36,930 bases of DNA from Promethearchaeota archaeon. GTDB lineage: Archaea > Asgardarchaeota > Lokiarchaeia > Sigyniarchaeales > SOKP01. Position numbers and translations under genes: made by a program. Shown piece after piece: positions 11,701-34,036 of the stretch; within the stretch, counting starts at the first letter, position 1, and the number at the start of each line of letters is the position of its first letter. Under the pieces are notes generated by a model that worked only from the letters and a program-made list of their open reading frames with translations, was not told the origin of the DNA and did not search any database. The DNA lies in the NCBI GenBank assembly GCA_016839915.1, contig JAEOTH010000201.1, forward strand, positions 1 through 36,930, written 5' to 3'.

Positions 11701-14700
11701 ATACCCAAAATTCAATCTTTCCACTGGTTATAGAAGCTCCTAAAGGGTTATAAAAATCTATTATTCCTGCTTCACCAAGATTCATAATTTTCATTACGTT
11801 ATCATGTCCTTCATAAGAAGAACAAGTTTCACCATAAGAAGGATAATTATCTTTATCATAAAATACTTTAGCATATACAGCTTCTATAAATCCTCTGTCA
11901 TTAGCTCCGGCAGTAGGAGCGATTAATTTTACTTGGAATTCAGATAAATCATCTTCTGTTTCCTCCAATATCCAAGATAAAGATTTCCATTCTCCCCAAG
12001 GATTTGGAAAATTATAATATTTATTTCCCTTCCAATTAGTTCCTCCATCAAACGAAATATCAACACCTGTGTTTCCTGCAGATCCCCATTCAAATCCGAA
12101 AATATATACATCAACTCTAGAAACATCATACCCTGCAAATGTCTCAAAATCAAATATTACTTCATCTCCATCATCATCACTCCACCATTCTATTCCATAA
12201 AGATCTATACTCTGTCCTTCGGGATATAAAACATCATCGTCTATATCATCAAATCCATGAGTTCCATTTTTAAAACCCCACTCAAATTTATCGTCTCCAT
12301 TCGGACGTAGAAATTCAAAATAAATATCTTGTAAATCCTGATCATGATACCAACCACCGGGCCAATAGGGGGGAGTATCATAAAGAAAATCATAAGTACT
12401 TCTACTTTTTAATTTAGATACTACATCATCAATTTGTTTATGATTATAAGTTTTACAATATTTTTTATAATCAAGTTCAAGTTCTCTATAGGATTTAGGC
12501 TTTGAAGCAATAGTTACATCTTGATAAAATTCTGATATACTTGATTTTAATATATAAATATCTGGATATAGTTCTATAATTTCATCGTATATGTTTCTTC
12601 TTTGATCGTATTCTACATCAATTTCTGTATCAATTTTTAATTCTAAATGATCATTTACTTCAGATAATGTTCTTGATATTTCATAAGATTGTGTTTCTGA
12701 TGGAGCGTATCCATCACCTGTCCATTTTCCAAAATAATTACTCCATTCTGGTGATCCATTCTCTTCTTCAATAGCGAATCTAGTATGCATCCAAGCCTTT
12801 CCTGTTCCTTCATTTGTAACTTTTATATGAAAACTTATTTCATCACCTACCTCTAAACTTCCATGAGATCTTATCTTATCTTCTGGAAATTCTATATAAG
12901 TTTCAGAAGGATTATCACTTACTGAAAAATCGGGAAGAGGAAGTGGATTATAGTGTCTATATATTGATTCACCTATAAACCAAATAAATTCTATTGCTAA
13001 ACCAATAAGTAACCCCCAATATCCACCCAAAGAACTAAATTGCACAATTAAATAAGGAATTAAAGTTGCAGATAAAACTTTTGCCGTTTCATAAAACATA
13101 GCCCATATAGGATTATCAATCATCCAATGTCCATCAGTCCAAATATCATATATAGCAACAGCCCAATCATATATCAGTATTGCATATCCAAATAACATTA
13201 ATGCATAACCTAAGTACTTAGAAGTTCCAGATAATCCTTTACTTATTGCCTGATAATAATGTCTATTATATGCTCCTTCAATTAACATTAAAATTCCAGA
13301 AACTATGAGAGCGACTCCTAAAGATATTTTTAGATATCCACTTATCATTCTTAGCATAAACTCTGCTGAAGTAGGATCAACTGTTTTTTCAACATTACAT
13401 ATTTCTAAAAATCCTACAAGAATATTTAGTACACCCATTCCAATTCCTAGAACTCCTTTTTGCACTTTTTTAAGACCTGTTGTTGCCCAATATTCTTTTA
13501 CTCGAGTTAATCTAATTTCTAATTCTAGTATTTCTCTTTGAATTCGAATTCTTATAAACTTTGAAGTGCGAGCAACAACTTTCAACAACTTAGGAAAAAA
13601 TTCTCTACATCTTTGTTGTAATTCAGCGTATATAAAAAACCCAGCAAAATCTTTTAAATCATCAGGAAATCCAGCCATATCAAGTAGATCATTCGTAACT
13701 TCTTGAGTTATATAAACATAATTATTTCCATATGCATATTTAGGATTATTATCTGGACCCACATACAACTCCACATTACTCATATCATCGAACCAATTAT
13801 TAAGTGTTCTTAAGTGTTTAATGTTTTGCTTTATAATATCATAATCATATATAGTATCAGGACCGTGATCAAATAGTTCATCCCACAAATTTTCTATGTC
13901 CCAAATGCTTACAACTTCAGGATCTCCGAACCAATCAAGTCCTAATCCAAAATGCTCTTCGAACGTTCTAAATTGAAAAGTACCCGACAAATCTTTACTA
14001 AACTGTCTTCTTCTCAAAATGGCTCGATGAACTGGATTTATTTGTATAGCATTATATTCATTTACACAATCTATTACTCTCCTATTAGGTGAAGTAAAGA
14101 AATCAAATACATCCTCTGATAAAAAGGATAGAAGATCATCGACGTTTAAGTTAAGTTCTCCTGCTAGATCAACAACGCATGGAGTAATACCGGCTGGAAG
14201 CCCCCAATCGAAATCTTGAAAGCCTACAGATAAGATAATCAGATTAAGATATAAAATTGTCCATATTTCAGGATACCAATATGTTATAAAAAAACTATTT
14301 ACATCCCAAGAATATTTACAAAATACTAATTTTCCGGCATCAATCTCTAAAGTTCTTCCATCATATAATATTTTTTTTACATCATTATCATAATCAAATC
14401 CAATATTAGGAATTCCTTCAGAAGTATCTGGCTTTTCTATGATAGTAATATTAGTAAAAGTTAATTTATCATGAAAAGCTCCGTTAGAAGTTTTGATTTG
14501 ATTTTCAGGAATACCCAATCCTTGAATATAATCAAATTTAAGAACTTCACCATCTGAAAAAGTAAGTCTCTCCATATTTATTGGAAATCTAGTAATATCT
14601 AATCTTTGTTCATATAAATCATTATAATCTCCATATAAATCCCATGTTTTAGTATAACATTCTATATATTCTCCTACATTATCTCTATATTCAAATAATT

Positions 14701-21307: not shown

Positions 21308-21442
21308 TTATTTTTTATTTTTAGCAGCAGCACGTTGGGCTCTCGCCCTGAATCCTTGATTTTTTCCGCTTCGGTCTGCATGAGACTGAATCCTACTTGC
21401 CGCTTTAGAGGTCATCTTACCCTTACCTTTTCCTTTTCCCAT
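21308..21442 (-). CDS. Very small SMP-like basic protein (44 residues)
   Basis: Minus-strand ATG at 21442, TAA at 21310-21308. AGGTG lies 6 nt before the ATG, a good SD. The product starts with a lysine/glycine run (GKGKGKGKM) and continues TSKAASRIQSHADRSGKNQG then FRARAQRAAAKNKK. The ASRIQS ... F+ARAQ+AA pattern is that of short SMP-type (seed-maturation-protein-like) proteins known from plants, fungi and some microbes; this is from memory of the family pattern. The role is unknown; a small, basic, probably disordered protein could be stress-related or bind nucleic acid. It lies 45 nt downstream of RNA element copy 1, in the same orientation, so its mRNA may carry that element as its leader. 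Confidence 0.75.
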   Translation of the reverse strand: MGKGKGKGKMTSKAASRIQSHADRSGKNQGFRARAQRAAAKNKK

Positions 21443-21476
21443 TTATTCCACCTTTTTTTCTTATTTTTAAAGGGAA

Positions 21477-21666
21477 GACTCCTGCCACCAAGACCTAAAC
21501 CCAAGGTCGGAAACAAAATAGGGGGAGGAGGGCGAAATCAGAGTGCGCGTTTACACACTACCAAAAGACAAAAATCCAAGGTAGCAGCAGGAGTCATAGT
21601 TCGCAATTTATTATGGTACATATTGTATTCATGGATGCTTGAGTTTGGCGTTCCTATTTTGTCAAG
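21477..21666 (-). ncRNA. Structured RNA element, copy 1 (upstream of SMP-like gene)
   Basis: Positions 21487-21601 match 33617-33731 with two differences in 115; beyond that the alignment continues without gaps but more diverged, to a conserved block (21650-21669). The core is clearly more GC-rich than its flanks. The minus-strand RNA can form AGUGUGU-AAAC-GCGCACU (21559-21542), using two G-U pairs that exist only on this strand, a 5-bp GACCU/AGGUC hairpin with 7-nt loop (21508-21492), and a closing 9-bp stem GACTCCTGC/GCAGGAGTC (21595-21587 with 21485-21477). A TATA box is 25 nt before the inferred 5' end. It could be an independent RNA or a 5' leader or riboswitch of the SMP-like gene. I do not recognise a known RNA family. 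Confidence 0.6.
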
Positions 21667-21677
21667 ATACATATAGT

Positions 21678-21929
21678 AACCCATCTATTTATAGTTTTTC
21701 AGGCATTTGGAGTTTAGAATTTTTGCTTTAAATATAGTAATTAAAAATCAAAAATTACGTACACTTTTCAATTTAATATTGATCAATTATATCAGACATA
21801 AGAATTTAAATAATTATCATGGATAAAGTATAATATAAGGCAAAAAGTTTGATAGATTGATATTAAATAATGCCAGGTGTTCAAGCGAGTCTATTATATA
21901 TGAGAGAAAATTAAGAACAGAATTTTATA
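21678..21929. other. Intergenic region between RNA copy 1 and TPR gene
   Basis: It holds the minus-strand promoter of RNA copy 1 and, to the right, the plus-strand promoter of the TPR gene. I see nothing else. Confidence 0.5.
21685..21700 (-). promoter_or_regulatory. BRE/TATA promoter of RNA copy 1
   Basis: On the minus strand GAAAAA (BRE-like) is followed by CTATAAATAG. The same promoter lies at exactly the same offset (12,130 bp) in copy 2. A second conserved block, TTTAAAGCAAAAATT, lies further upstream. Confidence 0.6.
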
Positions 21930-24095
21930 GTGATAAAATTGAGTGAAGATTTTAAAAATTTTTATAAGGATTACTTTTTAGATTATTGGGAATTAAAATA
22001 TAAGTTTCTAAAGGATAGGATTGAAAATTATAATAAACGGGATGAATTATTTGTTGACATCGACGGAATTGACACAATTCCAGACTATAAAAGGAAATTC
22101 GTAACTTTACTAAAGTTCGAGGTTCATTCTCTAAAATTTCAGATTATTGAGACCTTGTTTAGTTTTATTTTTGCATTAGAGAAATGCGATGATATAGATT
22201 TATGGTTTAATCTTAGTTTCCCTAGTAATGTTAGTGAAAGAAGTTTCGCTGCTTATGATAAAATTTCAGAATTTAAAAATTCATGGAAATTGGAAGATTA
22301 TTTAAAAAATGAAGTGGAATTAAATGAAGAATTGATTCCATATTGGAAATACGTGTTTTATTATGATAATGATCTATCTGCATGTGGAGTAGATGTTGAA
22401 ATTATTGAAAAAAAGATTATTAATCTCTTACACCAAATGTCTCAGACATTTGCAGATAGAGAAGATTATAATGCTTATAAACATGCACTGAGATGTTTTT
22501 CAACCTCATTATCCGTCTCAATAATACCACAAAATACAAATAGATCAATCCCTATCGGTTTTGCTAAGAATGGAATGAATTTTCTTACTAAAATAGTAAA
22601 AAAGGATGATATTGTTATTAATTCTACTTTTAAAGCTTTTTCTCCAAAAGAAGATTTATATTATATTCAAGAAGCAATGAAATTATTAAAGAATATCATA
22701 AATGTAAGAAAACCACATTTCTGTAATGAGCAAAGTGATGATATATATTATTGCGAAGAAGTTAAAGAGCCATATTACGTTTCTGATGACTATTCTTTAC
22801 CAAGGTTCTCAAGATCTACAACTTCTTTGAATACAATTTTAAGACAAGCAGATTATCATTACCACCAAAATAATATTGATAATGCAATAGTTTTTTTTGA
22901 AAAAGTACTTCAGATTGACAATACTAATCAGAGTGCAATTCTAGGTTTAGGGTATTGTTACTATAAACTTAAAGATTTTGACAATGCTATTAAATTCTTC
23001 AAGAAATACACATATAACAATAGAGCAGAATATTGGAAAAGAGCACAATATCATTTAGCATTATGTTATTATTCGAAAAATGATTTGAAGCTCACAGACG
23101 TTGAATTAAATAAATTAATAAACCATTTTCCAGATGATAAGGATAGCATACTTACTTATGCAAGATATTTTCTGGCAGACATAAAATTAAGATTAAATCA
23201 AAAATACTTTGAGGAAAATGGAAGAAATGATGTAAAATATGTTAAAGCAGCATCGAAATTATTAAAAAAAGCAGAAGAGAATAATTTCGAACATCCTGAA
23301 ATATGGTTTAAATTGGCTCTAGTCAAATCATATTTAGGACATTTTGAGTCTGCCAAGGAAATATATCAAAAGCTTAATCATTACTTTCCTGATGACTTAT
23401 CGACCAAATTAAATTTAGCTCACTTAGAAATTGACTCTGAAGGAGATTTAGATTACGCTGAAAGATTACTTCAAGAATGCTTAGAATTAAACAAAGATCA
23501 TTTTAATACATGGGTAGGTCTCTCTTTTTTAAAACAAAAGCAAGGTAAACTTGATGATTGTTTATATGCATGTAAGAAAGTGTTGGAACTATCAAATAAT
23601 CCAGAAGAAAAAAAGATTGCTAATAATATTATGGGTGGATATTATCGTGATTGTGGTGATTTTGAAAAAGCATTAGAGTGTTTTCGAAAATCTCTTGAAA
23701 TCGATAAAAACTTTGATTACGCATTAGAAGGATATATACAATGTTTATTGAACCTCAAAAGGTATGGAGAAATTGATGAACTTACTAAAAGCTTAGAATA
23801 TAATAAAGTAAATAGATATAATTTAAAAGCAAGAGGATATGCACTCTCTTTTATGGATAAACATGAAGAAGCCTTGGAATTGATTGATAAATGTATTGAA
23901 ATTTTTACAGATGATTTGAGATACTTAAGCGACCTATATGATTCTAAAGGAGATTTTCTAGTAAGAAGTGGAAATATTATAAAAGCTCTGGATTACTATC
24001 AGAAATCCTTGAATACTGGAGATGGAGATTATGAGTTTAATTCTGAAACAAGGGAAAAAATTAAAAAATATAGCCCTAAAAAACTAGAAGAATAA
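21930..24095 (+). CDS. TPR-repeat protein (721 residues)
   Basis: The start is GTG at 21930; no ATG lies in frame until well inside the protein. Residues 1 to about 290 are helical and unrecognised, with aromatic-rich segments (NFYKDYFLDYWELKYKFLKDR). From about 300 to 700 the sequence is a TPR solenoid with G/A/Y-spaced helix pairs, e.g. YHQNNIDNAIVFFEKVLQID, GLGYCYYKLKDFDNAIKFFK, LALVKSYLGHFESAKEIYQK and GGYYRDCGDFEKALECFRKS. No catalytic domain is visible, so it is probably a cytoplasmic scaffold. It is flanked by defence-type genes and is convergent with the Orc1-like gene. The partner of the solenoid is unknown; the N-terminal domain may be the specific part. Confidence 0.8.
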   Translation: MIKLSEDFKNFYKDYFLDYWELKYKFLKDRIENYNKRDELFVDIDGIDTIPDYKRKFVTLLKFEVHSLKFQIIETLFSFIFALEKCDDIDLWFNLSFPSNVSERSFAAYDKISEFKNSWKLEDYLKNEVELNEELIPYWKYVFYYDNDLSACGVDVEIIEKKIINLLHQMSQTFADREDYNAYKHALRCFSTSLSVSIIPQNTNRSIPIGFAKNGMNFLTKIVKKDDIVINSTFKAFSPKEDLYYIQEAMKLLKNIINVRKPHFCNEQSDDIYYCEEVKEPYYVSDDYSLPRFSRSTTSLNTILRQADYHYHQNNIDNAIVFFEKVLQIDNTNQSAILGLGYCYYKLKDFDNAIKFFKKYTYNNRAEYWKRAQYHLALCYYSKNDLKLTDVELNKLINHFPDDKDSILTYARYFLADIKLRLNQKYFEENGRNDVKYVKAASKLLKKAEENNFEHPEIWFKLALVKSYLGHFESAKEIYQKLNHYFPDDLSTKLNLAHLEIDSEGDLDYAERLLQECLELNKDHFNTWVGLSFLKQKQGKLDDCLYACKKVLELSNNPEEKKIANNIMGGYYRDCGDFEKALECFRKSLEIDKNFDYALEGYIQCLLNLKRYGEIDELTKSLEYNKVNRYNLKARGYALSFMDKHEEALELIDKCIEIFTDDLRYLSDLYDSKGDFLVRSGNIIKALDYYQKSLNTGDGDYEFNSETREKIKKYSPKKLEE

Positions 24096-24301
24096 CTTTC
24101 GAATTTTCGAATTTTATTCAGCTTGAGATACCAAGAATAAAACTCTTAATGATTTAACATTTAATCAATTCTAAAAGATTAATATATCGTTAATAAAAAA
24201 AGATTTATCGAGGCCTTTACTGATATAAAAGTTGATATATATTTAAATTCCTTTAAATATTTGATTGAATGAATACCAATCTAATTTTTAAATGCAAATT
24301 A

Positions 24302-25462
24302 TTAAGAATACAAATTTGTATATTTGTTTGAATAAGAAGGAACGGATAGATTTAGATTATTTACTATGCTCTGAAACTGAAATAAGTCAATCGTGAAAAA
24401 AATTATATCATTTTCATAAGGTTCCTTTCCTAAAATTCTATTCTCGCTACAAAACAAGCAATTTTTTTCCATTAGATTTAAAAATTTTTTTAAATTATCA
24501 TAATTTCTTTTTTTATCAAAATAATCGCAAGCACCTTCATAAATTTTTACTAGATCACTTGAGCTTATACCAAATTTTTTGTAAATAAAGTTATGAAGAA
24601 ATTTGCTATACTCTTCTGTGAGGTCTCTCAGAAACTTTTTATATACTTCTGTGCAATCCAAAAAAAAGTTTTTTAAAAAGATTTCATCAAAAATAAAATC
24701 ATCAATACAATTTCCAATGATTTGTGAAACGTTATAATTAAATAAACCTTGACAGCTTATTTTGAGATAAGTTTCTTTTAGAATGCTATTGATTCTTCCA
24801 GGGTTATTAACTTTATGTTGAATACATTGAGCAGTAATATATTTTATATATTCTAAGTTTACTTGGTTGAAATTTGCTTGCTCACAAAAAAAAATGCCGA
24901 TATCGATTAATTTTGTGTATCCGAATGGTTTTAATTGAAAGGGATCTTGACAAAATTCATAAATACTTCTAAGGTTTTTTTTTAATTTACCGTTACATGT
25001 CCCAAAAAAATAAATTTTATTCCTTTTGCAATTTTTAACTATCTTTTTCAATAAATTTGAATTAAGTTTTTCGACATTATTGACTACTAATGCATAATAA
25101 GCGTATTTTTTTCTATTATTAAGTAAAAATTCAATCTCTGGAATTCTATGGAGCAAGCTTGGGTTTAAGGAAAGTTTATTTGTAATAAAATTAAAACACT
25201 CATCCATCAACATGTTTGAATCGTTATTTCGACCATCAATGCAAAGAGCACAACTTTCCAACATATCAAAAAATTTTTTCACAGATTTAATCTCGAAAAC
25301 TCTTTTACCTTCACCTTTTTCTCCTTGGATAATTATAGGTTTAAAATCTGCATCTTCAATCGAGTTTTTAATAGAATTTTGGAATTGTGATATCTCCCTT
25401 TCTCTATGTAATAGCTCTGGAGGTATATATGATGGTAAAAATATTTCAGGTAGGATGCTCAA
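24302..25462 (-). CDS. Degenerate Orc1/Cdc6-like AAA+ protein
   Basis: Residues 10-35 (PSYIPPELLHREREISQFQNSI) and 153-180 (FGTCNGKLKKNL ... DPFQLKPF) match the start and sensor-1/arginine region of archaeal Orc1/Cdc6 initiators, and 205-245 fit the lid helices (ITAQCIQHKVNNPGRINSILKETY). The active site is damaged: Walker A reads G47-EKGEGK-R54 with R in place of T/S, and Walker B reads ALVVNNVEKL where an acidic pair (DE) is expected. ATP hydrolysis is therefore doubtful, though the fold is kept. The C-terminal 130 residues have helix-rich but unclear winged-helix character. It might be a decoy, regulator or plasmid/virus-derived initiator. A perfect palindrome lies about 150 nt upstream of its start. 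Confidence 0.75.
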   Translation of the reverse strand: MSILPEIFLPSYIPPELLHREREISQFQNSIKNSIEDADFKPIIIQGEKGEGKRVFEIKSVKKFFDMLESCALCIDGRNNDSNMLMDECFNFITNKLSLNPSLLHRIPEIEFLLNNRKKYAYYALVVNNVEKLNSNLLKKIVKNCKRNKIYFFGTCNGKLKKNLRSIYEFCQDPFQLKPFGYTKLIDIGIFFCEQANFNQVNLEYIKYITAQCIQHKVNNPGRINSILKETYLKISCQGLFNYNVSQIIGNCIDDFIFDEIFLKNFFLDCTEVYKKFLRDLTEEYSKFLHNFIYKKFGISSSDLVKIYEGACDYFDKKRNYDNLKKFLNLMEKNCLFCSENRILGKEPYENDIIFFTIDLFQFQSIVNNLNLSVPSYSNKYTNLYS

Positions 25463-25772
25463 ATTTGAAACAACTATTTAAAAGATCTTTACCTTAATAT
25501 GGTACTCTAATTATAAAAACAGCTCGAAAAAAATGTTTGCTACTAAGGAGAGTTATATATTAACTATCTTACGGTTATATGTCATTAAATTTATGTTGTA
25601 AAAATTAACTTAATCATAAACGTTTATGATTTTTTTTCTTTACAAATTATAGAATTTTTCCTTAAGTAGTAAAGAAAATAACTTATTCTCATCCTAATAG
25701 ATTCTTTTTTATATTTCTATTAGTATTAAAATAATGAAATGTCTAGAATTAAGAGAATAATTTATAAATCAG
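25463..25772. other. Divergent promoter region beside Orc1-like gene
   Basis: This 310-bp AT-rich gap must hold promoters in both directions (a TATA-like TTTTTATATTTC near 25706 would serve the plus-strand gene) and contains a 20-bp perfect palindrome. Confidence 0.5.
25612..25631. repeat. Perfect 20-bp palindrome beside Orc1-like gene
   Basis: AATCATAAACGTTTATGATT reads the same on both strands without a spacer and is followed by a T-run. It could be an operator, a replication-initiator site or a terminator stem. It does not resemble the usual archaeal ORB sequence. Confidence 0.6.
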
Positions 25773-27851
25773 ATGCTTATGGATTTCGATATCTTTAAAC
25801 CGTTAAATAAATTGCCTACTAAATTATTAGTATATTCAAAGGAGGATTTTAGAGAAGAGGAGTTAAAATTAATTAAAGCATATTGTGACTCCTTATCTAA
25901 TCGTATTTCTCATAATGATAGACATTTATTATTTGAAAATAAAATCCCTAAACCAAAAGATTTATCCTTAGAGGGGGATTTAAAATGTGGCTTTAACTTA
26001 CTTAAAGAAAAAAGAATGACTATAGAAAATGGTCTTTGTTTCAGAACTATTTTGTATTATGAAGAATATTTAACTGGTAAGCTAGAATATACTAATAACC
26101 TTTGTAAATTAATTGAAACTATAATAAGAAACGAGGTTGAAATTAAAAATCCTAATACTACTTTTTTATCGTTTATAGGAAGTTATTATAATAGACACTT
26201 ACTTAAATCTTTTTTTTTAGCTTATATATTAAACGATCTAGGTTATATCCAAATATCCTTTGGATTGCCTGATTATGTTCGTAAGGATTATCGTTATTAT
26301 CAAGATTTAAAGATTTATGAGATTACGGATAAGTGTAGGGATTTTTATAGAAATATCTGTCCACTTCAAAGGTTTAAGGAATTAGTCACTTATATTAAAC
26401 GACTTAAAGATAATTACCTTTTTGAAAGTTATTCTAATATACAAGTAAGAATTACTGCGTTAGCTCGTGATTCATTTTGGGAAATCATATACATAAGATT
26501 TGACTTTACTAACGAGCAAACTTTAATTAAAAAACCCAGATACTCTTATCCCAATAAAGAGGTTGTTTTGTTTGAAGAAATAATTGAATTAGAAAAATTA
26601 ATTAGCGGCTTTAAAGTAGAAGATAGTCTTTTAACATATAATTCTGCAGAATTTAAATTTGAATTTGTATATTTCATTAAATTTCCATCCAATTTTTTAA
26701 AATTTAAAGAATTGATGAAACCAACTTTTCAATTACAACGAATAGAATGCAAAGATCCTTTAAATTTTATTTATTTTAACTTGTTAACATCATATTTAGG
26801 AAATAAATGTGAATTTGACTTTAAAGAGATAATGAAAAAGGAATTTAGGGATGATACGACCAAAATAATAAAAAGCTCCACTGAGGTAATTAATGAATTT
26901 ATGGGATATAATCTTAATTCTTTATCCTTACCCTTTATTATAGGAGTATATCCTATTAAATCATTTGAAATCTTAAATATAGTGTTAGGAGAAAATATCA
27001 AAAAAAAAATTAAGATCACATGGACTGTAAATCCAGAATATGATACATATTTCAGATGTAAAACAACAATTAATGGTATCCAATACGAAATTCCTAAAGA
27101 AGGGATCGATATTACTATCGATGAAAATAGCCCTAGATCTTTTCCTTGCGATATTCAGTGGAATGGAAAATCAGATTTAGTCTCATCAGATGAGATTTTA
27201 GCTAAGGTTGACATTAAGAATCCATACTATAAAGAAAAAAGCATAAAAGAGTATAAAGGAACAGTTTTTGAAAAAATAAATAGGCACTTAAAAGAAGCGG
27301 GAATCCTAGAAAAAGAGCCAAGAAATATTCAAGATAAAACCTGGAAATTGCTTTTAGAATATTTGGGAAGATTGCTGATTCAGTCATATAATAAAAAAAA
27401 TTCTTTTCTAAAATCAGCAGAAGAATGGAAAAAAGAAATAGAAATGCATGAATGGTTTCATATAAAGTTTCAAGTATTTAAACAGGAACACAATTTCATT
27501 ACTTACCACACGGAGGCAGAATCTGGTGGAGGGAAATGTGAACACTTCATAAATTATATTCCAATTGAAGATAAAATTGTGGATAAATCAGATAATAAGG
27601 AGATGAAGGCTTTTTTAGAAGAGCAATATAAAAAATATTATTCACAGATTAGAAGATATATGGGTGGGCAACAGAGTAAATATGGAATTCTTCTAATTAC
27701 CGATAAAAGAGAAGGGATTAAAAATGATGTTATCAGAGCATCAGTGCCTGAGAATTGTTTAATATTTCAATACAATGAAAGAGATGATTTATGGTGTGCC
27801 GTTTTTGCCTTTCAAGTATTATTAAAATCCCCGTCACAGCTGAAGGCATAA
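25773..27851 (+). CDS. Large protein with C-terminal PD-(D/E)XK-like nuclease domain
   Basis: The 692-residue product has an unrecognised N-terminal and central part (about 1-480). It is cytoplasmic, with a beta-rich segment at about 410-470 that resembles a ligand-binding or Ig-like fold. The C-terminus (about 560-690) has nuclease-like order: E581 and E583, a G585-G586-G587 turn, acidic E590, then E599-D600-K601 (ExK), and after a helix Q625-IRR-Y629 (QxxxY) and a strand YGILLITD. E replaces the usual D of motif II, so activity is less certain. It heads a plus-strand run with the AbiTii/HEPN-like and TPR-CHAT genes (gaps 103 and 38 nt). An ATG 6 nt further in (25779) is an alternative start. 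Probable role: DNA sensor or effector (inference). Confidence 0.6.
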   Translation: MLMDFDIFKPLNKLPTKLLVYSKEDFREEELKLIKAYCDSLSNRISHNDRHLLFENKIPKPKDLSLEGDLKCGFNLLKEKRMTIENGLCFRTILYYEEYLTGKLEYTNNLCKLIETIIRNEVEIKNPNTTFLSFIGSYYNRHLLKSFFLAYILNDLGYIQISFGLPDYVRKDYRYYQDLKIYEITDKCRDFYRNICPLQRFKELVTYIKRLKDNYLFESYSNIQVRITALARDSFWEIIYIRFDFTNEQTLIKKPRYSYPNKEVVLFEEIIELEKLISGFKVEDSLLTYNSAEFKFEFVYFIKFPSNFLKFKELMKPTFQLQRIECKDPLNFIYFNLLTSYLGNKCEFDFKEIMKKEFRDDTTKIIKSSTEVINEFMGYNLNSLSLPFIIGVYPIKSFEILNIVLGENIKKKIKITWTVNPEYDTYFRCKTTINGIQYEIPKEGIDITIDENSPRSFPCDIQWNGKSDLVSSDEILAKVDIKNPYYKEKSIKEYKGTVFEKINRHLKEAGILEKEPRNIQDKTWKLLLEYLGRLLIQSYNKKNSFLKSAEEWKKEIEMHEWFHIKFQVFKQEHNFITYHTEAESGGGKCEHFINYIPIEDKIVDKSDNKEMKAFLEEQYKKYYSQIRRYMGGQQSKYGILLITDKREGIKNDVIRASVPENCLIFQYNERDDLWCAVFAFQVLLKSPSQLKA

Positions 27852-27954
27852 GGATTATAACATATTTGAATTTCAGTGAAATTTCAATAAAGCAGTTAGA
27901 ATTATATTTTAAAATTATTATATTAAGTATAAAAAAGTCAAAAATCAATACCAT

Positions 27955-28893
27955 ATGAAAAGAAACTCCCTTGATTTAGATAATGTTAAAAAAGATGTCT
28001 ATAAGAAAGATAAAATAGTAGAAAATCTAAAATTAATTAAAAAAATCTCTAAAAATAATAACTATTTAAGTGTTTTATATTGGATCAATGCAGAATTAGA
28101 AGGATATGATGATAAAGAATTTCGATTACCATATCGTAAAATCCGAAAAAATGTATTGAAGCATGCTTCTAAATTTTTTCTTGAGAGACTCAACAAGAAA
28201 TTAGAATATATCACAGATCCTATAGGAAAAATAATCAAATGGACAGAACGAGATAAAATAACATACAAATCGACTAACTTTTGGGGTACTACCTTAACAA
28301 TTACAATATATAAATCTGAATTAGACGATGTTTTACAAGGAGTAATGAGAAAAATTGCTGATTTTTTTCTTTTGTATGACAAAGATCAGAAATTAATCGA
28401 AAAAGAGTTTAATTTCCTTCCAGATGATAATTATGAAGAATTCAAAGAGAAAACTAATAAAGAAACATTAGATATCGATCTAGGCAAGTTAAATCAATTC
28501 TTATACGATTATAAAGAGAAAGAAATATTTAAAGAGAGCTTAAAAGATCTAATACGTTTTGAATATGAGAAGAAATTCAAATATGCTATAATTCTTATGG
28601 GGTCAATTTTAGAATTTCTGTTAATAAGATATTATGCTGTCAATAATATAGAATTAAGTTCGGTGTATGGTAAGAAACGTTATTATAAATTCTCGGAACT
28701 TGTGAATTATGCCATTAAAACTGATTTCATGAATGAAAAAAAAAGATGGGAAATAGTTCAATCTTATTTACGTGATTTTAGGAATCAAATTCACCTTATT
28801 AATGAAATGCGCGAAAGGAGAATAGATGAGAAATGGTATGAAACGCTAAAACCTGTTTTTGAGTTTTTATACGATAAATTTAAACATTTTTAA
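27955..28893 (+). CDS. AbiTii-like / HEPN-like protein
   Basis: Residues 38-61 (LSVLYWINAELEGY then FRLPYRKIR) fit the AbiTii domain, an N-terminal helical domain known from abortive-infection proteins. The C-terminal third (about 200-312) resembles a DUF4145/HEPN-type helical domain: YAIILMGSILEFLLIRYY, then R273-D-F-R276-N-Q-I-H280, which meets the HEPN RNase motif Rx4-6H (R273 to H280) and the RNxxH form. HEPN proteins are commonly RNA-cleaving toxins; that role is inferred here. It has no signal peptide or true membrane helix. It sits between the PD-(D/E)XK-like gene and the TPR-CHAT gene in one orientation, so it may be the effector or proteolytic substrate of the latter. Confidence 0.65.
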   Translation: MKRNSLDLDNVKKDVYKKDKIVENLKLIKKISKNNNYLSVLYWINAELEGYDDKEFRLPYRKIRKNVLKHASKFFLERLNKKLEYITDPIGKIIKWTERDKITYKSTNFWGTTLTITIYKSELDDVLQGVMRKIADFFLLYDKDQKLIEKEFNFLPDDNYEEFKEKTNKETLDIDLGKLNQFLYDYKEKEIFKESLKDLIRFEYEKKFKYAIILMGSILEFLLIRYYAVNNIELSSVYGKKRYYKFSELVNYAIKTDFMNEKKRWEIVQSYLRDFRNQIHLINEMRERRIDEKWYETLKPVFEFLYDKFKHF

Positions 28894-28931
28894 TAATTTT
28901 AGGAAGAATCTAGGGTAAGAATTACTGATAA

Positions 28932-31900
28932 GTGAATGAAATGGAAATTAGAATGAAAATTTTATTATTTTTTAAACAGGCACAAAGAGAAACTGAAAAT
29001 GGCAATTACAAGGATTCTAATAATTTTCTTGATATGTGTATTGAATTATCACAACTAGAAAAAGAGTCCTTTAATATAGCTGTATTCCGCCTTTATAAGG
29101 CTCGAAATTTCATTAAAATGAAGAATCCCGATAAAGCTTTAGAAGAACTTTTCTTAAGTGAACAGATTCTTATTGATCTTAGAAAAAATCCATCTTTAAA
29201 TATTGAGAATGTTGAAAAAAAATTATCTGTCTGTTATTTTAAAAAAGCAATAGTATATTATTGGTTAGGAGAACATTTAAAATCATTAATCAATTCTAAT
29301 ATAAGTCTTAAAATTGTTAAAAGATTAAAATTGGCTTCAGAAGTTCCCAAAATTCTTATACATATGGGCATATGTTATAAAAGTAGAGGGTGGGTTTTGA
29401 AAGCCTTAGGTAAATATCAAAAAGCTAAGAGCTTATTAGAAAAAGAGGGAAATGACGAGAAGTTACTTGAATGTTTGTTAGGATTAATGGAAATAAATCT
29501 AAAGATGATTAATCTCAAGGAATGTAATTCTCTCATAAAGCAAGCAATATATTTGGCTTCTCCATCGAAAAATGCAATAGGATACGCCCGATTAAGAGAA
29601 AAAATTGCTGATTATTTCCTTGCAATTAACGATTTGAATTGTGCTCTGAAGAATTACGACATAAGCCTTGAGAATTATAGACAAAAGGAATTACAACTCG
29701 ACTATACTCGATGTCTTTCTAATAAAGGTTATGCTTTATATGATTTTAAACGGAATAAACTTGCTTTCCAAATATTTAAGAAAGTTGAGAAAATTCTTGT
29801 TGATTTAAAAGATGATGAATTAATAGTAGCAAATTCTATAAATTTAGGTTTAATATTTCAAAGATTTAAAGAATATGATCAAGCTGAAGACTATTTTCTT
29901 AAAGCTTTTGATTATGCGAAACAAGGTAATATACTTGAGCATCTTGATAAGTCAATTTTCAATTTAATAGGGATAAGATATTGGAGAAATGATCTTAATG
30001 GTGCTATTTCATTACTTGAGGATTTTATTCAAGATGCGAAAAAAAATGAAAATAAAATTCTTGAAGGGATGCTATATCTCAATTTAGGGGAAATATATAA
30101 ATGGAAAGGCGATTATGATTTAGCTCTTAAGCATTTTCAACAATCTAAAGATATTTTTAATTCACTCTCTTATAAAATTTACGAATTAAATGCTGTATCT
30201 CAAATTGGAATTATTCATAAAATGAGGGGAGATTTCGAAAGCATGATATCCCTTTTAAAGAGTGTTAGAGCGATTATAAGATCCTCAAAATCTAATCAAT
30301 TAACAAAATATCTCTTGGAAATTGGTACAGCGTATTTTGAATTAAATAATATGGATCAGGCTATACCTTACTTTTATCAATCATTAAGAATGAGTAGGCG
30401 AATGGGGGATTGGATGCAAGAACTAGTCTCTCTTAGCCATATAGGTCAAATCTTTCTCAAGAAAGACAGGTTAGATAAATCATTAAAATTGTTCAATAGA
30501 TTACATAAAAAATCCGAAATGTTAGGTTCAAATAAGGGTATCAATAATGCAATTATGCATAAAGGATTAATCAAGTTAAAAAAAAATGAGTATGATGATG
30601 CATTTCATCTATATAATAAAGCAATTGAATTAAGCATTGAATTAAAGGAACTTCATTCTTATACACTTATACATAGGTATATTGGGGAAGGTTATATGAA
30701 ACAAGGACAATTTGTAAAAGCTTTAGTAAAATTTCGAATAGCATTAAAAAACAGCAAACGGTTTTTCTTTCGTAAAGAAACTAGGCTCTCATTAATAGAT
30801 CTTGGTCGTCTTTATGGAAAGATGCACAAGATCTCAAAAGCGGAGGCTTCACTTCAACAAGCAAAACAACTATTTAATGAATCAGTATTCTTGATCAAAT
30901 CAGAGGAATTAAGAAATCTCTACAGAAGTTCTGAGACGACTCCTCATAAATTTATTCTTGATTTATATCTGAATGAATATAAAGAAACCAATAATAAAAA
31001 CACCTTAATGAAACTATTAATAAATCTTGAAGATAATAGATCTCAAGAAATTCTAAATAGCTTGAAATATAGTGAAGTAAAGAAAGATGTTATAGAGAGA
31101 GAAGGGGATACTAAGAATTTAGAAAGGAAAATGAATAAACGTATCAATTACCTGGAAGAAGAATTAGATAAGAAACAAAAACAAGCAATTGTTTTGAAAC
31201 ACAGGATTGAAGAGAGAAACATAGACGATTTTGTTTCGAATGTATTGAAAAAAAAGTTTAATGAATTGTTAATAGAAATAAACAGTTACATCGAAGAAAT
31301 TAGAGAAAAAACATATTCACGAGGAATTATTTATACTCACGAAAGAAGCGAAAATCTTATCACCGAAATAGAATCAATCATACAGAAATATAATATCATA
31401 ATTTGGTACATGATTATTATTGAAAATCATCAAAAGATTGATAACAATTTTTATATTTTAAGATGGTCAAATGAGGCAGTGGACTTGATTAAAATCAAAA
31501 ATTTTCATAAGAATGAAATCCTAAAATTGATAAGAGATTTCCATCACATTGAGAGTAGTGTATTAACAAATTATTTTCTTAAACCTTTAAAATTGAATGA
31601 GCTTAAAGATAAGCTTAGAATGTCGCTTCCAAATATGCTTTTTGAAAATTTGAATTCATTCAATGCCTTAATTATCATCCCCCACGATTTTCTTTTCTCC
31701 ATTCCGTGGGAAATCTTAGAAGATGTAAGCCTTAAGATTCCATTAGTACAAAATTTATCTCTTAATCTTTTTTCTTACTTATTAAAAAAAAGCCCGACTC
31801 TTATGGATAAAAATTTTTTAATCTTCTTTAATCCTAATTATAATCTTCCTGATAAAAACTTGTTATTTGATAAGAATAAAAAACAATGGATCACATATTA

Positions 31901-32435
31901 CTTACAAAATCTTCCTATAGAACTCATTACAAGAGAACAAGAAACAGCCACTAAATCAGAATTTAAAGAACTAATTAATCGAATGAATTTTAACCTCATT
32001 CATTTTTCAGGACATGCTCAGTATGATATATTTGGAATTAATCCAAAGCTTACAGGTATTTCATTTTACGATAAAGATACATTGGATGTAATGAACTTAT
32101 ATGAAATTTCTCAATTAGAATTAAAAGATTTCCCTTTTATTTTCGTTGATGCGTGTGAAAGTTCAAAAGGAATAAGCAGTAAAATAAATGAACCAATTAG
32201 TATTATTAAAAGTTTGTTTGTAGCTGGAGCGGGATCAATACTAGCAACTAATTGGAGTTTAGAGGATCGAATATCTTTTGATTTTTCAAAAATATTTTAT
32301 AAATATTTATTGGATGGCTATGATATTGCAATCGCTCTCTTCAAGACGAGAAAAGACTTAAGATCAATGTATCCTGAAAGCTCTATATGGGGAAATTTCA
32401 CGTTATACGGAAATCCCTTTATAAAGTTTTTCTGA
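28932..32435 (+). CDS. TPR-CHAT caspase-like protease
   Basis: The 1,167-residue product starts at GTG 28932 (ATG at 28941 is an alternative). Residues about 10-690 form a long TPR solenoid (AKRNKLAFQIFKKVEKI-like pairs; GDYDLALKHFQQSKDIF; NMDQAIPYFYQSLRMSRRMGD). A charged coiled coil spans about 715-790 (EREGDTKNLERKMNKRINYL). The last about 230 residues are a CHAT domain with the catalytic histidine H1028 (LIHFSGHAQYD) and cysteine C1075 (PFIFVDACESS), then AGAGSILATNWSLED and the closing WGNFTLYGNP strand. CHAT enzymes are caspase-like cysteine proteases, and TPR-CHAT proteins are known as activated effectors in several defence systems. Substrate unknown; the AbiTii/HEPN-like protein 38 nt upstream is a candidate. 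Catalytic residues are intact. Confidence 0.85.
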   Translation: MNEMEIRMKILLFFKQAQRETENGNYKDSNNFLDMCIELSQLEKESFNIAVFRLYKARNFIKMKNPDKALEELFLSEQILIDLRKNPSLNIENVEKKLSVCYFKKAIVYYWLGEHLKSLINSNISLKIVKRLKLASEVPKILIHMGICYKSRGWVLKALGKYQKAKSLLEKEGNDEKLLECLLGLMEINLKMINLKECNSLIKQAIYLASPSKNAIGYARLREKIADYFLAINDLNCALKNYDISLENYRQKELQLDYTRCLSNKGYALYDFKRNKLAFQIFKKVEKILVDLKDDELIVANSINLGLIFQRFKEYDQAEDYFLKAFDYAKQGNILEHLDKSIFNLIGIRYWRNDLNGAISLLEDFIQDAKKNENKILEGMLYLNLGEIYKWKGDYDLALKHFQQSKDIFNSLSYKIYELNAVSQIGIIHKMRGDFESMISLLKSVRAIIRSSKSNQLTKYLLEIGTAYFELNNMDQAIPYFYQSLRMSRRMGDWMQELVSLSHIGQIFLKKDRLDKSLKLFNRLHKKSEMLGSNKGINNAIMHKGLIKLKKNEYDDAFHLYNKAIELSIELKELHSYTLIHRYIGEGYMKQGQFVKALVKFRIALKNSKRFFFRKETRLSLIDLGRLYGKMHKISKAEASLQQAKQLFNESVFLIKSEELRNLYRSSETTPHKFILDLYLNEYKETNNKNTLMKLLINLEDNRSQEILNSLKYSEVKKDVIEREGDTKNLERKMNKRINYLEEELDKKQKQAIVLKHRIEERNIDDFVSNVLKKKFNELLIEINSYIEEIREKTYSRGIIYTHERSENLITEIESIIQKYNIIIWYMIIIENHQKIDNNFYILRWSNEAVDLIKIKNFHKNEILKLIRDFHHIESSVLTNYFLKPLKLNELKDKLRMSLPNMLFENLNSFNALIIIPHDFLFSIPWEILEDVSLKIPLVQNLSLNLFSYLLKKSPTLMDKNFLIFFNPNYNLPDKNLLFDKNKKQWITYYLQNLPIELITREQETATKSEFKELINRMNFNLIHFSGHAQYDIFGINPKLTGISFYDKDTLDVMNLYEISQLELKDFPFIFVDACESSKGISSKINEPISIIKSLFVAGAGSILATNWSLEDRISFDFSKIFYKYLLDGYDIAIALFKTRKDLRSMYPESSIWGNFTLYGNPFIKFF

Positions 32436-32511
32436 ACATCAATATCCTAATATTAAAAATAAATCTTATTCTTAATTCCATTCTTAGTTTAATTAATGCT
32501 TAAGAGTCTTT
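32436..32511. other. Gap between TPR-CHAT gene and 56-residue gene
   Basis: A short AT-rich spacer between convergent genes; no feature seen. Confidence 0.5.
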
Positions 32512-32682
32512 TCAATTAAATAATTTGAGAACTTTTCCTTCTCCACTGGAGGGTTTTTCCCATGAATTATCCTCTTTTTTTTGGATAAAGGTTAAGAAAA
32601 TATATGGATCATGCCATGAAGGACTCTGGAGCATCATACCTACATTCTGACCAAAAAACATTTTTCTGTGGGTATTTACCAT
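32512..32682 (-). CDS. Short WEKPS-motif protein (56 residues)
   Basis: Minus-strand ATG at 32682 and TGA at 32514-32512. The product reads MVNTHRKMFFGQNVG, then SWHDPYIFLTFIQKK, and SWEKPSSGEGKVLKLFN. The W-x-D-PY-x-FLTF strand and the WEKPSxGEGK motif look like a genuine conserved fold. I have the impression that longer archaeal proteins carry such a motif with a helical continuation after GEGK, but I cannot name the family. The frame stops six residues after GEGK, so it may be a truncated copy or the 5' remnant of a longer gene. The SD is weak (GAGAAG), with an AT-rich TATA-like stretch upstream. It is convergent with TPR-CHAT and lies downstream of the M50 gene. Confidence 0.55.
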   Translation of the reverse strand: MVNTHRKMFFGQNVGMMLQSPSWHDPYIFLTFIQKKEDNSWEKPSSGEGKVLKLFN

Positions 32683-32767
32683 TTTTATCGCTTCTCTTAT
32701 TTTTATAACTAAATATCTATAGCTTTTTTTTAAAAAAAATCATTTTTAATTTTTTCAATTTAATTAA

Positions 32768-33520
32768 TTACGGAATAGATAGAGAAAATAATGGTCTTGT
32801 GTAAACAATAAAAATTATAATTATTGAAAACATCAATATTAGATATAAAAGACTAAAAGAGGGTAAATCAATTCTCTTTTGATTTTTGCTCTTTGTAAAT
32901 GTATATTTTTTTGTAATTTCCTTAATCCTATATACTAGCCCAAGAATCAAAAGAATTAAAATTAAAGCACCAAAATATATGGTAAAATATTGTACAACGA
33001 CTGGATTAACTTGAGGGGGGATATTTATGAAGTTATATGCATCATAGGTATATGATCCACTATTAACTCCACTAAACCAATACCAAATATCTTTAATTAT
33101 CATAGTTAAAGTTGAGACAAATAAAGGGAGAGACGCAGAAAATGGAATTTTTTTATAAAAGGTTACTAAAATATTTATTAATCCCATAGACAGACACCCT
33201 GATAAACTCCCTGCGATAGTAATTATTTTAAGTTGAACCCATTGAGGATCATTAAAAGGCAGAGACCAAGAAAAATCAAAAATAGTCAGTCCTCCAAAAG
33301 GATAGTATACAATTAATCTGGCATCGGAAAAACCAAAAGCTTTTGCGCTAATAAAATGACCTAATTCGTGAAAAAAGGTGGAGATAAAAGGGATATAAAG
33401 GATGGTAATTACAGTTAAGCAAATGAATATAAGTAAATGTTTATCTAAGACTTCTTTCTCGATGTATATCCTATTTTTCATATGCATAATTTTTAAATGA
33501 GTATGTACTTTAGGTTTCAT
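32768..33520 (-). CDS. M50-type intramembrane metalloprotease
   Basis: The 250-residue protein has about five transmembrane helices (about 29-50, 98-120, 130-148, 172-196, 222-245). The zinc site H51-E52-L-G-H55 lies at the end of the first helix (STFFHELGHFISAKAFG), and a candidate third ligand, D160, is in SGSYTYDAYNF, as in peptidase M50/M50B-like proteins. These enzymes cleave membrane-spanning regulators or signal proteins; the substrate here is unknown. Other in-frame ATGs occur at M12 and M14. RNA element copy 2 sits 97 nt upstream in the same orientation and may form part of its leader. The catalytic residues appear intact. Confidence 0.8.
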   Translation of the reverse strand: MKPKVHTHLKIMHMKNRIYIEKEVLDKHLLIFICLTVITILYIPFISTFFHELGHFISAKAFGFSDARLIVYYPFGGLTIFDFSWSLPFNDPQWVQLKIITIAGSLSGCLSMGLINILVTFYKKIPFSASLPLFVSTLTMIIKDIWYWFSGVNSGSYTYDAYNFINIPPQVNPVVVQYFTIYFGALILILLILGLVYRIKEITKKYTFTKSKNQKRIDLPSFSLLYLILMFSIIIIFIVYTRPLFSLSIP

Positions 33521-33616
33521 CCAATTTCTTCCATTTAAAAAATGGAGTGGGAATTAATTTATCGACTTAATAATAAGATTACTTAGTTTTTGAAAATATT
33601 AAAAAGGATATTATAG

Positions 33617-33796
33617 ACCAAGACCTAAACCCAAGGTCGGAAACAAAATAGGGGGAGGAGGGCGAAATCAGAGTGCGCGTTTACACACTACCAAAAGACA
33701 AAAATCCAGGGTAGTAGCAGGAGTCATAGTTTAGATTTTGTCGTTGTAAATCGTATACGTATGGATACTTGAATTTGGTATTCCTATTTTGTCAAG
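33617..33796 (-). ncRNA. Structured RNA element, copy 2 (upstream of M50 protease gene)
   Basis: The core 33617-33731 matches copy 1 (21487-21601) with only two differences and keeps both internal hairpins (33672-33689 and 33622-33638). The inferred 5' block TATCTTGACAAAATAGGAA (33799-33781) is also identical, and the TATA box is at the matching position. The 3' arm of the closing stem seen in copy 1 is missing: the sequence past 33617 is AT-rich and runs into CCTTTTTAATATTTT, a possible T-rich terminator. The RNA may therefore end there or continue into the M50 gene. Confidence 0.55.
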
Positions 33797-33814
33797 ATAG
33801 AAATAGAATTTGAA

Positions 33815-33830
33815 GTATAAATAGTTTTTC
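33815..33830 (-). promoter_or_regulatory. BRE/TATA promoter of RNA copy 2
   Basis: GAAAAA followed by CTATTTATAC on the minus strand, aligned base for base with the promoter of copy 1. The upstream block TTTAAAGCAAAAATT recurs here too. Confidence 0.55.
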
Positions 33831-34036
33831 CCTTGAAGTTTAAAATTTTTGCTTTAAATAAAAGTGTAATTTTATTTATCAAATTATAAACCTCTCATAA
33901 GAAAGTCTCCCGAAATATCCTTCCATTTTCTTGCGGTTTATTTACTTTCTCTTATTTTTTTCTTACTCTTTTGTATAAAGTATAAATTAATGAGCATCTT
34001 TAATTAATCAATAAATTACATAATAATGCATCACAT
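33830..34036. other. Divergent intergenic region
   Basis: AT-rich, with the upstream element of RNA copy 2 and the promoter of the LRR gene; nothing else seen. Confidence 0.4.

Follow-up and report, generated by a model that had tools for sequence, protein, structure and literature searches.

A putative stand-alone structured noncoding RNA, carried in multiple copies by one family of Lokiarchaeia

Comparative analysis indicated that two related elements on the minus strand of the window, i.e., the whole stretch of 36,930 nucleotides analysed here, are most likely copies of a structured noncoding RNA gene that stands alone, is about 165-200 nt long and belongs to a multicopy family. This RNA probably works on its own, and not as a switch for neighbouring genes. 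As far as searched, the sequence matches place the RNA family in one single family of Lokiarchaeia, and such a family-wide, strongly conserved structured RNA is apparently uncatalogued so far. Rfam 15 indeed gave no gathering-level match across the whole window, in line with the initial annotation, which knew of no matching RNA family, and no match at E ≤ 1 in 14,131 bases from five related loci; no description of this RNA was found in the literature searched.

The two copies in the window

Comparison of the window with itself revealed the two minus-strand copies (Table 1) as the top-scoring of three repeat pairs, 84.8% alike over 250 nt (21487-21734 versus 33617-33860, E 2.6e-65). As initially annotated, they are nearly identical over a core of 115 nt (AACTATGACTCC...GTCTTGGT), with two differences, and are GC-rich (0.50 and 0.48, versus 0.29 in the AT-rich window). 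Upstream of the core, the linker is far more diverged, yet similarity carries on: a 39-nt 5' block (TATCTTGACAAAATAGGA...ATCCAT) shows four differences, all of them transitions, and a TATA-like box lies upstream of this block in both copies, which bears out the shared 5' block described earlier and, as a promoter-like sequence, the shared promoter. The 3' limit of the similarity lies within the 3' strand of the closing stem P1, copy 1 being intact and copy 2 lacking the 3' half of that stem. The core of copy 2 is nearly unaltered despite this loss, which the model of a stand-alone RNA leaves unexplained. Four more model matches occur in the host genome: C169 and C97 are strong, C196 and C166 are weak and diverged.

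Downstream, 34 nt separate the core of copy 1 (to 21477) from the ATG of a 44-aa ORF, and 96 nt separate copy 2 from the ATG of a gene for an M50 membrane protease; these distances correct the 45 and 97 nt given earlier. The M50 identity was upheld by Pfam (PF02163, PF13398), while the 44-aa ORF matched zero Pfam families at E 0.001, so that its description as SMP-like is unconfirmed.

Table 1. Features of the two copies (window coordinates).
Feature	Position	Strand	Remark
Copy 1 TATA-like box TATAAATA	21686..21693	-	direct reading; ~26 nt upstream of leader strand
Copy 1 leader strand GACAAAATAGG, 5' half of pseudoknot helix	21653..21663	-	pairs with 21512-21522; found in L001, L002 and L136
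Copy 1 predicted transcript start	near 21664	-	inferred
Copy 1 structured core, P1 to P1', intact	21477..21595	-	R1 match 21476-21596, 122.9 bits, E 6.1e-28
Copy 1 P1 5' strand GACTCCTGCTGCTA	21582..21595	-	pairs with 21477-21490; helix 1 in covariation tests
Copy 1 J1/2 motif TTGGATTTTTGTCTTTTGGT	21560..21579	-	differs from family motif at one position
Copy 1 P2 hairpin	21542..21559	-	MFE and centroid; covariation
Copy 1 J2/3 strand CCTATTTTGTT, 3' half of pseudoknot helix	21512..21522	-	adjoins C-rich stretch 21521-21534
Copy 1 P3 hairpin GACCT...AGGTC	21492..21508	-	MFE; covariation
Copy 1 P1 3' strand	21477..21490	-	sequence reading and fold
Copy 1 pyrimidine/T-rich tail TTCCCTTT	~21469-21476	-	directly after P1 3' strand
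Copy 2 TATA-like box TATTTATA	33816..33823	-	direct reading
Copy 2 leader strand GACAAAATAGG	33783..33793	-	MFE structure pairs it with 33642-33652
Copy 2 core (motif, P2, J2/3, P3; no 3' half of P1)	33617..33715	-	R1 match spans model positions 12-110 only, 89.2 bits, E 3.4e-19
Copy 2 J1/2 motif, identical to family sequence	33690..33709	-	no differences

Conserved structure and the invariant strand

The comparative fold of the RNA is a three-way junction, made of the closing stem P1 and the hairpins P2 and P3. From 110 non-identical elements retained (including L151, a chance viral match), 107 were used for P1 comparison; 84 were kept by P1 score, five loci being left out by hand, and 58 remained without near-duplicates, among which 39 (alignment A1) and 45 diverse members (A2) were hand-picked, so that the pair statistics cover members with a recognisable P1. 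Within this scope, double-sided changes were observed at 22/22 modelled pairs in A2 and 20/22 in A1, which substantiates the structured RNA initially proposed. None of 500 shuffles of A2 matched any of the five measures, and 88.3% of its cells were paired, versus at most 46.3% when the pairing was slid. G-U cells (60) exceeded A-C cells (29), and the transcribed strand was assigned on this basis. Folding energy was ordinary and lent no support, with z-scores of -0.99 for copy 1 and -0.89 for copy 2 (37 and 38 of 200 shuffles as stable, respectively).

While the sequence of P1 diverges widely among copies, with compensatory changes, the 20-nt strand CUGGAUUUUUGUCUUUUGGU between P1 and P2 is invariant throughout A1 and A2, the aligned members having been gathered via this motif itself or close matches to it. 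It resembles none of the partner sites that were testable. Action of this strand through pairing with ribosomal RNA was considered, as 14 contiguous pairs (including G-U) are possible between the motif and 23S rRNA (GGGACAGAAATCC). Such a role is very unlikely: shuffled motifs equalled this pairing in 10/60 cases with the 23S rRNA of a family member and in 3/60 with that of a non-carrier, and equalled its duplex energy in 7/60 and 2/60, respectively, pairing being better with the non-carrier; with the 16S rRNA of a non-carrier, the shuffles gave 30/60 and 2/60. The own genome, in an assembly that shows no SSU rRNA, has no antisense site with fewer than three mismatches outside the elements, the antisense targets found being the elements and one three-mismatch site (control, 2). 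These rRNA comparisons, together with the Rfam scan, are what bears on a box C/D or H/ACA guide RNA.

By the same comparative approach, the 5' leader and the pyrimidine-rich junction between P2 and P3 form a pseudoknot helix. At a single orthologous locus with 21 elements, each element's own leader:junction partner indeed outscored 5000/5000 permutations, and 2000/2000 permutations were outscored across 119 elements. An ungapped helix scoring at least 20 was found in just 38 of these 119, so that the pseudoknot is perhaps not general. A U-rich triple helix of motif and leader was dropped as a candidate because the leader varies while the motif stays fixed. A coding origin was also rejected: the motif has no constant frame (54 elements split 23/20/11) and 65/119 elements lack the ATG sought. 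The 5' block of copy 1 looks codon-like and an ATG frequently overlaps P1; in copy 2, no ATG is in frame with the 5' block.

Distribution and genomic context

The R1 covariance model retrieved the element in 62/65 genomes of the host's family, including 15/15 of the best ones, with 195 matches in total, 0-10 per genome and two or more in 47/65 genomes. Further copies with compensatory changes in relatives, the check set in advance by the initial annotation, are thus abundant, and the duplicated noncoding RNA gene which it also envisaged is supported, the two window copies belonging to a family-wide multicopy RNA instead of a local two-copy element. In the rest of the phylum, 162 genomes were searched with R1, without a match. 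Run with an E threshold of 0.1 on 27 selected genomes, the R2 model yielded weak matches (E 0.006-0.08) in 7 of the 21 that lie outside the family; six of these matches, L215 and L219 not among them, were inspected by eye and none contained the full motif together with P1, that of G039 being a near-motif with two differences and no evident P1. A viral origin was rejected as well: a motif scan of IMG/VR yielded two contigs whose stretches are alike in kind, one of them inside a 999-aa ORF, so that neither was counted as an element.

The genomic context bears on the riboswitch or cis-acting leader, governing the gene downstream of each copy, which the initial annotation had put forward. Both window copies do sit 5' of a minus-strand gene, and among the 96 elements with a downstream ORF, this ORF is co-oriented for 59 and opposed for 37; an aptamer would also be compatible with an invariant single strand amid a junction of covarying helices, a feature shared with riboswitches and leader RNAs. 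However, grouping the elements by locus gives 58 kinds, 30 with a co-oriented and 21 with an opposed downstream gene, co-oriented ORFs begin a median of 236 nt away, and a TTT run follows P1 within 12 nt in 85/97 members. Neighbour proteins (98 representatives out of 102 listed, from 114 clusters, upstream and downstream pooled) hit each of the 25 Pfam families listed, of 56, with a single protein, so that no common regulated function was seen among them, and the search for a recurrent neighbour gene as a functional clue was unsupported. Regulation of the downstream gene is consequently improbable as the role of the family, but single copies, such as copy 2 of the window, could read through. 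This mixed orientation points away from a leader or riboswitch and towards a stand-alone, putatively trans-acting RNA. The slight surplus of co-oriented downstream genes (30 to 21) counts against the stand-alone reading.

One locus is common to 22 elements, flanked by a membrane-like protein of ~130 aa on one side and a radical-SAM protein on the other. These orthologous neighbours also weigh against a small MITE-like mobile element, with P1 as terminal inverted repeat and a transposase provided in trans. The family is indeed dispersed and multicopy, the P1 strands form an inverted repeat and the duplication in the window looks recent. However, P1 varies with compensation and with G-U pairs on one strand, the fixed part is the internal 20-nt strand, similarity in the window stops within P1 instead of at its border, and transposases are absent among the 25 of 56 neighbour Pfam families listed, making such mobility highly improbable.

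Regarding the preferred reading, a stand-alone RNA gene, an information peak occurs at the TATA-like box offset in 31 anchored members, on a very AT-rich background. Transcription would start just ahead of the leader, and P1 together with the T-tract would terminate the transcript.

Possible partners and mode of action

As the uridine-rich strand is fixed while the surrounding helices vary freely, it may serve all members for docking to a common partner, which would most likely be a protein. The AUUUUUG stretch of this strand, unpaired beside stems, is reminiscent of the Sm site of Sm-class snRNAs, with the difference that it is enclosed by P1; this likeness permits no inference of a trimethyl cap, a partner, a splicing role or common descent. 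A particle of the Y RNA type, bound by Ro60 (TROVE), was considered on the basis of a likeness (end-to-end closing stem, pyrimidine-rich internal segment, U-tail). It deserves hardly any credence, TROVE (PF05731) being found in 0/37 family genomes sampled and in 1/58 overall, that one a non-carrier.

Archaeal Lsm proteins are reported to bind sRNAs (PMC10779274). At the sequence level, the element resembles such Lsm/SmAP-bound sRNAs in being stand-alone and intergenic and in carrying both a U-rich stretch and a promoter-like sequence of its own, and differs from them by its much stronger structure and its invariant internal strand of 20 nt. Lsm genes occur in 58/58 genomes sampled, carriers and non-carriers, and so do not single out the carriers.

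Action in trans is put forward tentatively. Each paralogue would then meet its target through its pyrimidine-rich P2/P3 junction, whether exposed or covered by the leader. More speculatively, and rather unlikely as a whole, the paralogues could constitute a lineage-specific ribonucleoprotein system of Lokiarchaea, with one invariant docking strand (possibly of Sm/Lsm type), stems and junctions giving copy-specific targets, and the leader pseudoknot as a mask.

The determination of a 20-nt strand that stays constant amid changing helices offers a sharp handle on the partner, and closed or near-closed carrier genomes allow well-defined pull-down and transcriptome tests. The covariance model is an annotation tool for this RNA family that anyone can use. 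Almost no noncoding RNA biology of Lokiarchaea is described in the literature searched; if the proposed ribonucleoprotein system proved true, it would represent a modular regulatory layer, similar to snRNPs or sRNPs, that arose among the archaea most closely related to eukaryotes.

Structure and covariation of the element

The initial annotation had looked to compensatory changes among further copies, and these were indeed abundant. In the alignment of 45 more diverse sequences, all 22 pairs were changed on both sides, against at most 16 when partners were slid, paired cells amounted to 88.3% against at most 46.3%, and none of 500 shuffles attained any covariation measure; in the alignment of 39 sequences, 20 of the 22 pairs were changed on both sides and slid partners reached at most 11. 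The closing stem P1 was highly variable in sequence among copies with its pairing kept, as in the variant strands TGGTCCTTATCC/GGATAAGGACCA and TGATTTACTCCCACCCCAT/ATGGGGCGGGAGTAGATCA beside the common form GACTCCTGCC/GGCAGGAGTC. Hairpin P3 was absent from some members (e.g., L032 and L069), and others (L067, L115, and L129) carried an additional hairpin within the P2/P3 junction. Pairs comprised 60 G-U versus 29 A-C cells, and the transcribed strand is therefore the window's minus strand.

The 20 columns of the motif between P1 and P2 were invariant in both alignments. Most members were gathered via this motif or DNA near it, so that members with an altered motif are under-sampled, as illustrated by the relative at C166 in the host genome. 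Of the 97 members with a good P1, 85 had a TTT run no more than 12 nt beyond this stem, and U-tracts are described as functioning in archaeal termination (PMC8716108). In 31 anchored members, an A/T information peak preceded the leader strand, itself located upstream of P1, by about 27 nt; TATAAATA and TATTTATA occupy this position in the window copies. On this basis, a transcript of about 165-200 nt would be predicted, with the leader strand at its start and the T-tract at its end.

The window copies and their relatives in the host genome

Reading of the sequence bore out the two minus-strand copies described initially, which aligned over 250 nt at 84.8% identity in a self-comparison of the window (E 2.6e-65). 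Near-identity of the 115-nt core also held, with 2 differences, while the linker upstream of it had strongly diverged, a contrast suggestive of selection or gene conversion acting on the core. The 39-nt 5' block showed 4 differences. Similarity ended within the P1 3' strand, so that half of the closing stem is missing from copy 2 and its match to the covariance model R1, built from 39 members, was restricted to model positions 12-110 of 121. The lysine-rich ORF of 44 aa after copy 1 matched no Pfam family at E 0.001. Six element matches were found in the host genome (Table). The same self-comparison also revealed a second, weaker direct repeat.

Table. Features of the window and element matches in the host genome.
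Feature	Coordinates	Bits	Remarks
Copy 1 (core)	21477-21595	122.9	
Copy 2 (core)	33617-33715	89.2	
5' block, copy 1	21624-21663		
5' block, copy 2	33754-33793		
44-aa ORF	21308-21442		
Direct repeat	6172-6243 and 7639-7710		77.8% over 72 nt
Match at C169		121.7	
Match at C97		104.8	
Match at C196 (L186)	15787-15881 (C196)	42.9	diverged; only first part of motif kept
Match at C166 (L187)	11925-12046 (C166)	38.6	diverged; P1 and T-tract kept, motif lost

Leader pairing and alternative folds

In many copies, the leader strand (e.g., AAATAAAATAGGG) was complementary to a strand of the P2/P3 junction (CCCTATTTTATTT), and the two changed in step (AAAATACAATAG/CTATTGTATTTT, TAATATAGGG/CCCTATATTA, and AAATTAAATA/TATTTAATTT). 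An element's own partner outscored 5000 of 5000 permutations among 21 elements of one orthologous locus, picked irrespective of leader pairing, and 2000 of 2000 among 119 elements. This pairing is clear in part of the family and unproven for the remainder, since an ungapped helix of score at least 20 occurred in only 38 of the 119 elements and 17 of 102 beat all 20 dinucleotide shuffles (4.9 expected). Together with a formed P1, the modeled leader:junction helix would constitute a pseudoknot. In a subfamily of six elements (L066, L074, L104, L113, L133, and L206), the leader seems to pair not with the junction but 3' of P1 (ATAGGT with ACCTAT).

The 5' block of the window copies and of element L136 showed partial complementarity to the invariant motif, so that a further fold would be available to these three elements. 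In the minimum-energy fold of copy 2, without P1, the molecule was closed by the leader:junction helix and the 5' block was paired with the motif; this may represent an alternative state, predicted by a fold of unremarkable energy (z -0.89).

Distribution, genomic context and putative function

Further copies in related genomes, proposed as a check in the initial annotation, were widespread: R1 produced matches in 62 of 65 genomes from the host's family (195 altogether, 0 to 10 per genome), including all 15 of the most complete, and in none of the 162 genomes outside it among 227 of the phylum, under strict filters with 15 candidates scored per genome. With the broader model R2 at a threshold of E 0.1, 7 of 21 outside genomes yielded weak matches, and the full motif with P1 was not seen in the six matches that were read. 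By DNA search, 35 of 58 genomes contained relatives, every one of them in the host's family. The exact 20-mer CTGGATTTTTGTCTTTTGGT occurred in at least 117 stretches of the named genome collection; among the 80 matches listed, 78 were titled Lokiarchaeota or Lokiarchaeia. The other two (L072 and L094) came from one Patescibacteria-titled MAG, AMOR_Bin_1762, for which contig mis-binning is likely, because L072 combines a good P1 with a neighbor protein that clusters with Loki neighbors.

A downstream ORF was present for 96 of 110 elements (one of the 110 a chance viral match), co-oriented in 59 (median distance 236 nt) and opposed in 37 (89 nt). Once elements were grouped by shared neighbors into 58 locus kinds, the downstream gene was co-oriented in 30 and opposed in 21, and the upstream gene in 29 and 20, respectively. 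The best conserved locus (22 elements) was flanked on one side by a radical-SAM protein carrying an HMPTM zinc ribbon and on the other by a divergent protein of ~130 aa, for which Pfam had no match. No fixed neighbor gene was found across these locus kinds and 98 scanned neighbor representatives, since the 25 of 56 Pfam families listed had one member each.

As claimed initially, no known RNA family applied: Rfam gave no match, and no description was found in the literature searched, which in part covered the top-ranked papers of larger result sets. We filed the element as a new family among structured small noncoding RNAs. Ribosomal RNA was rejected as pairing partner of the motif, being not usefully better than shuffles, and the 23S of a non-carrier paired better. 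Beyond the elements themselves, no sequence of the host's assembly matched the antisense of the motif with fewer than 3 mismatches, and Ro60/TROVE was found in none of 37 family genomes. The invariant strand contains AUUUUUG, which we take to resemble an Sm site; Lsm proteins were present in 58 of 58 genomes, carriers and non-carriers alike. The best reading is that of a putative stand-alone, trans-acting RNA, and the invariance of this strand amid helices that change freely points to what would be one shared partner.
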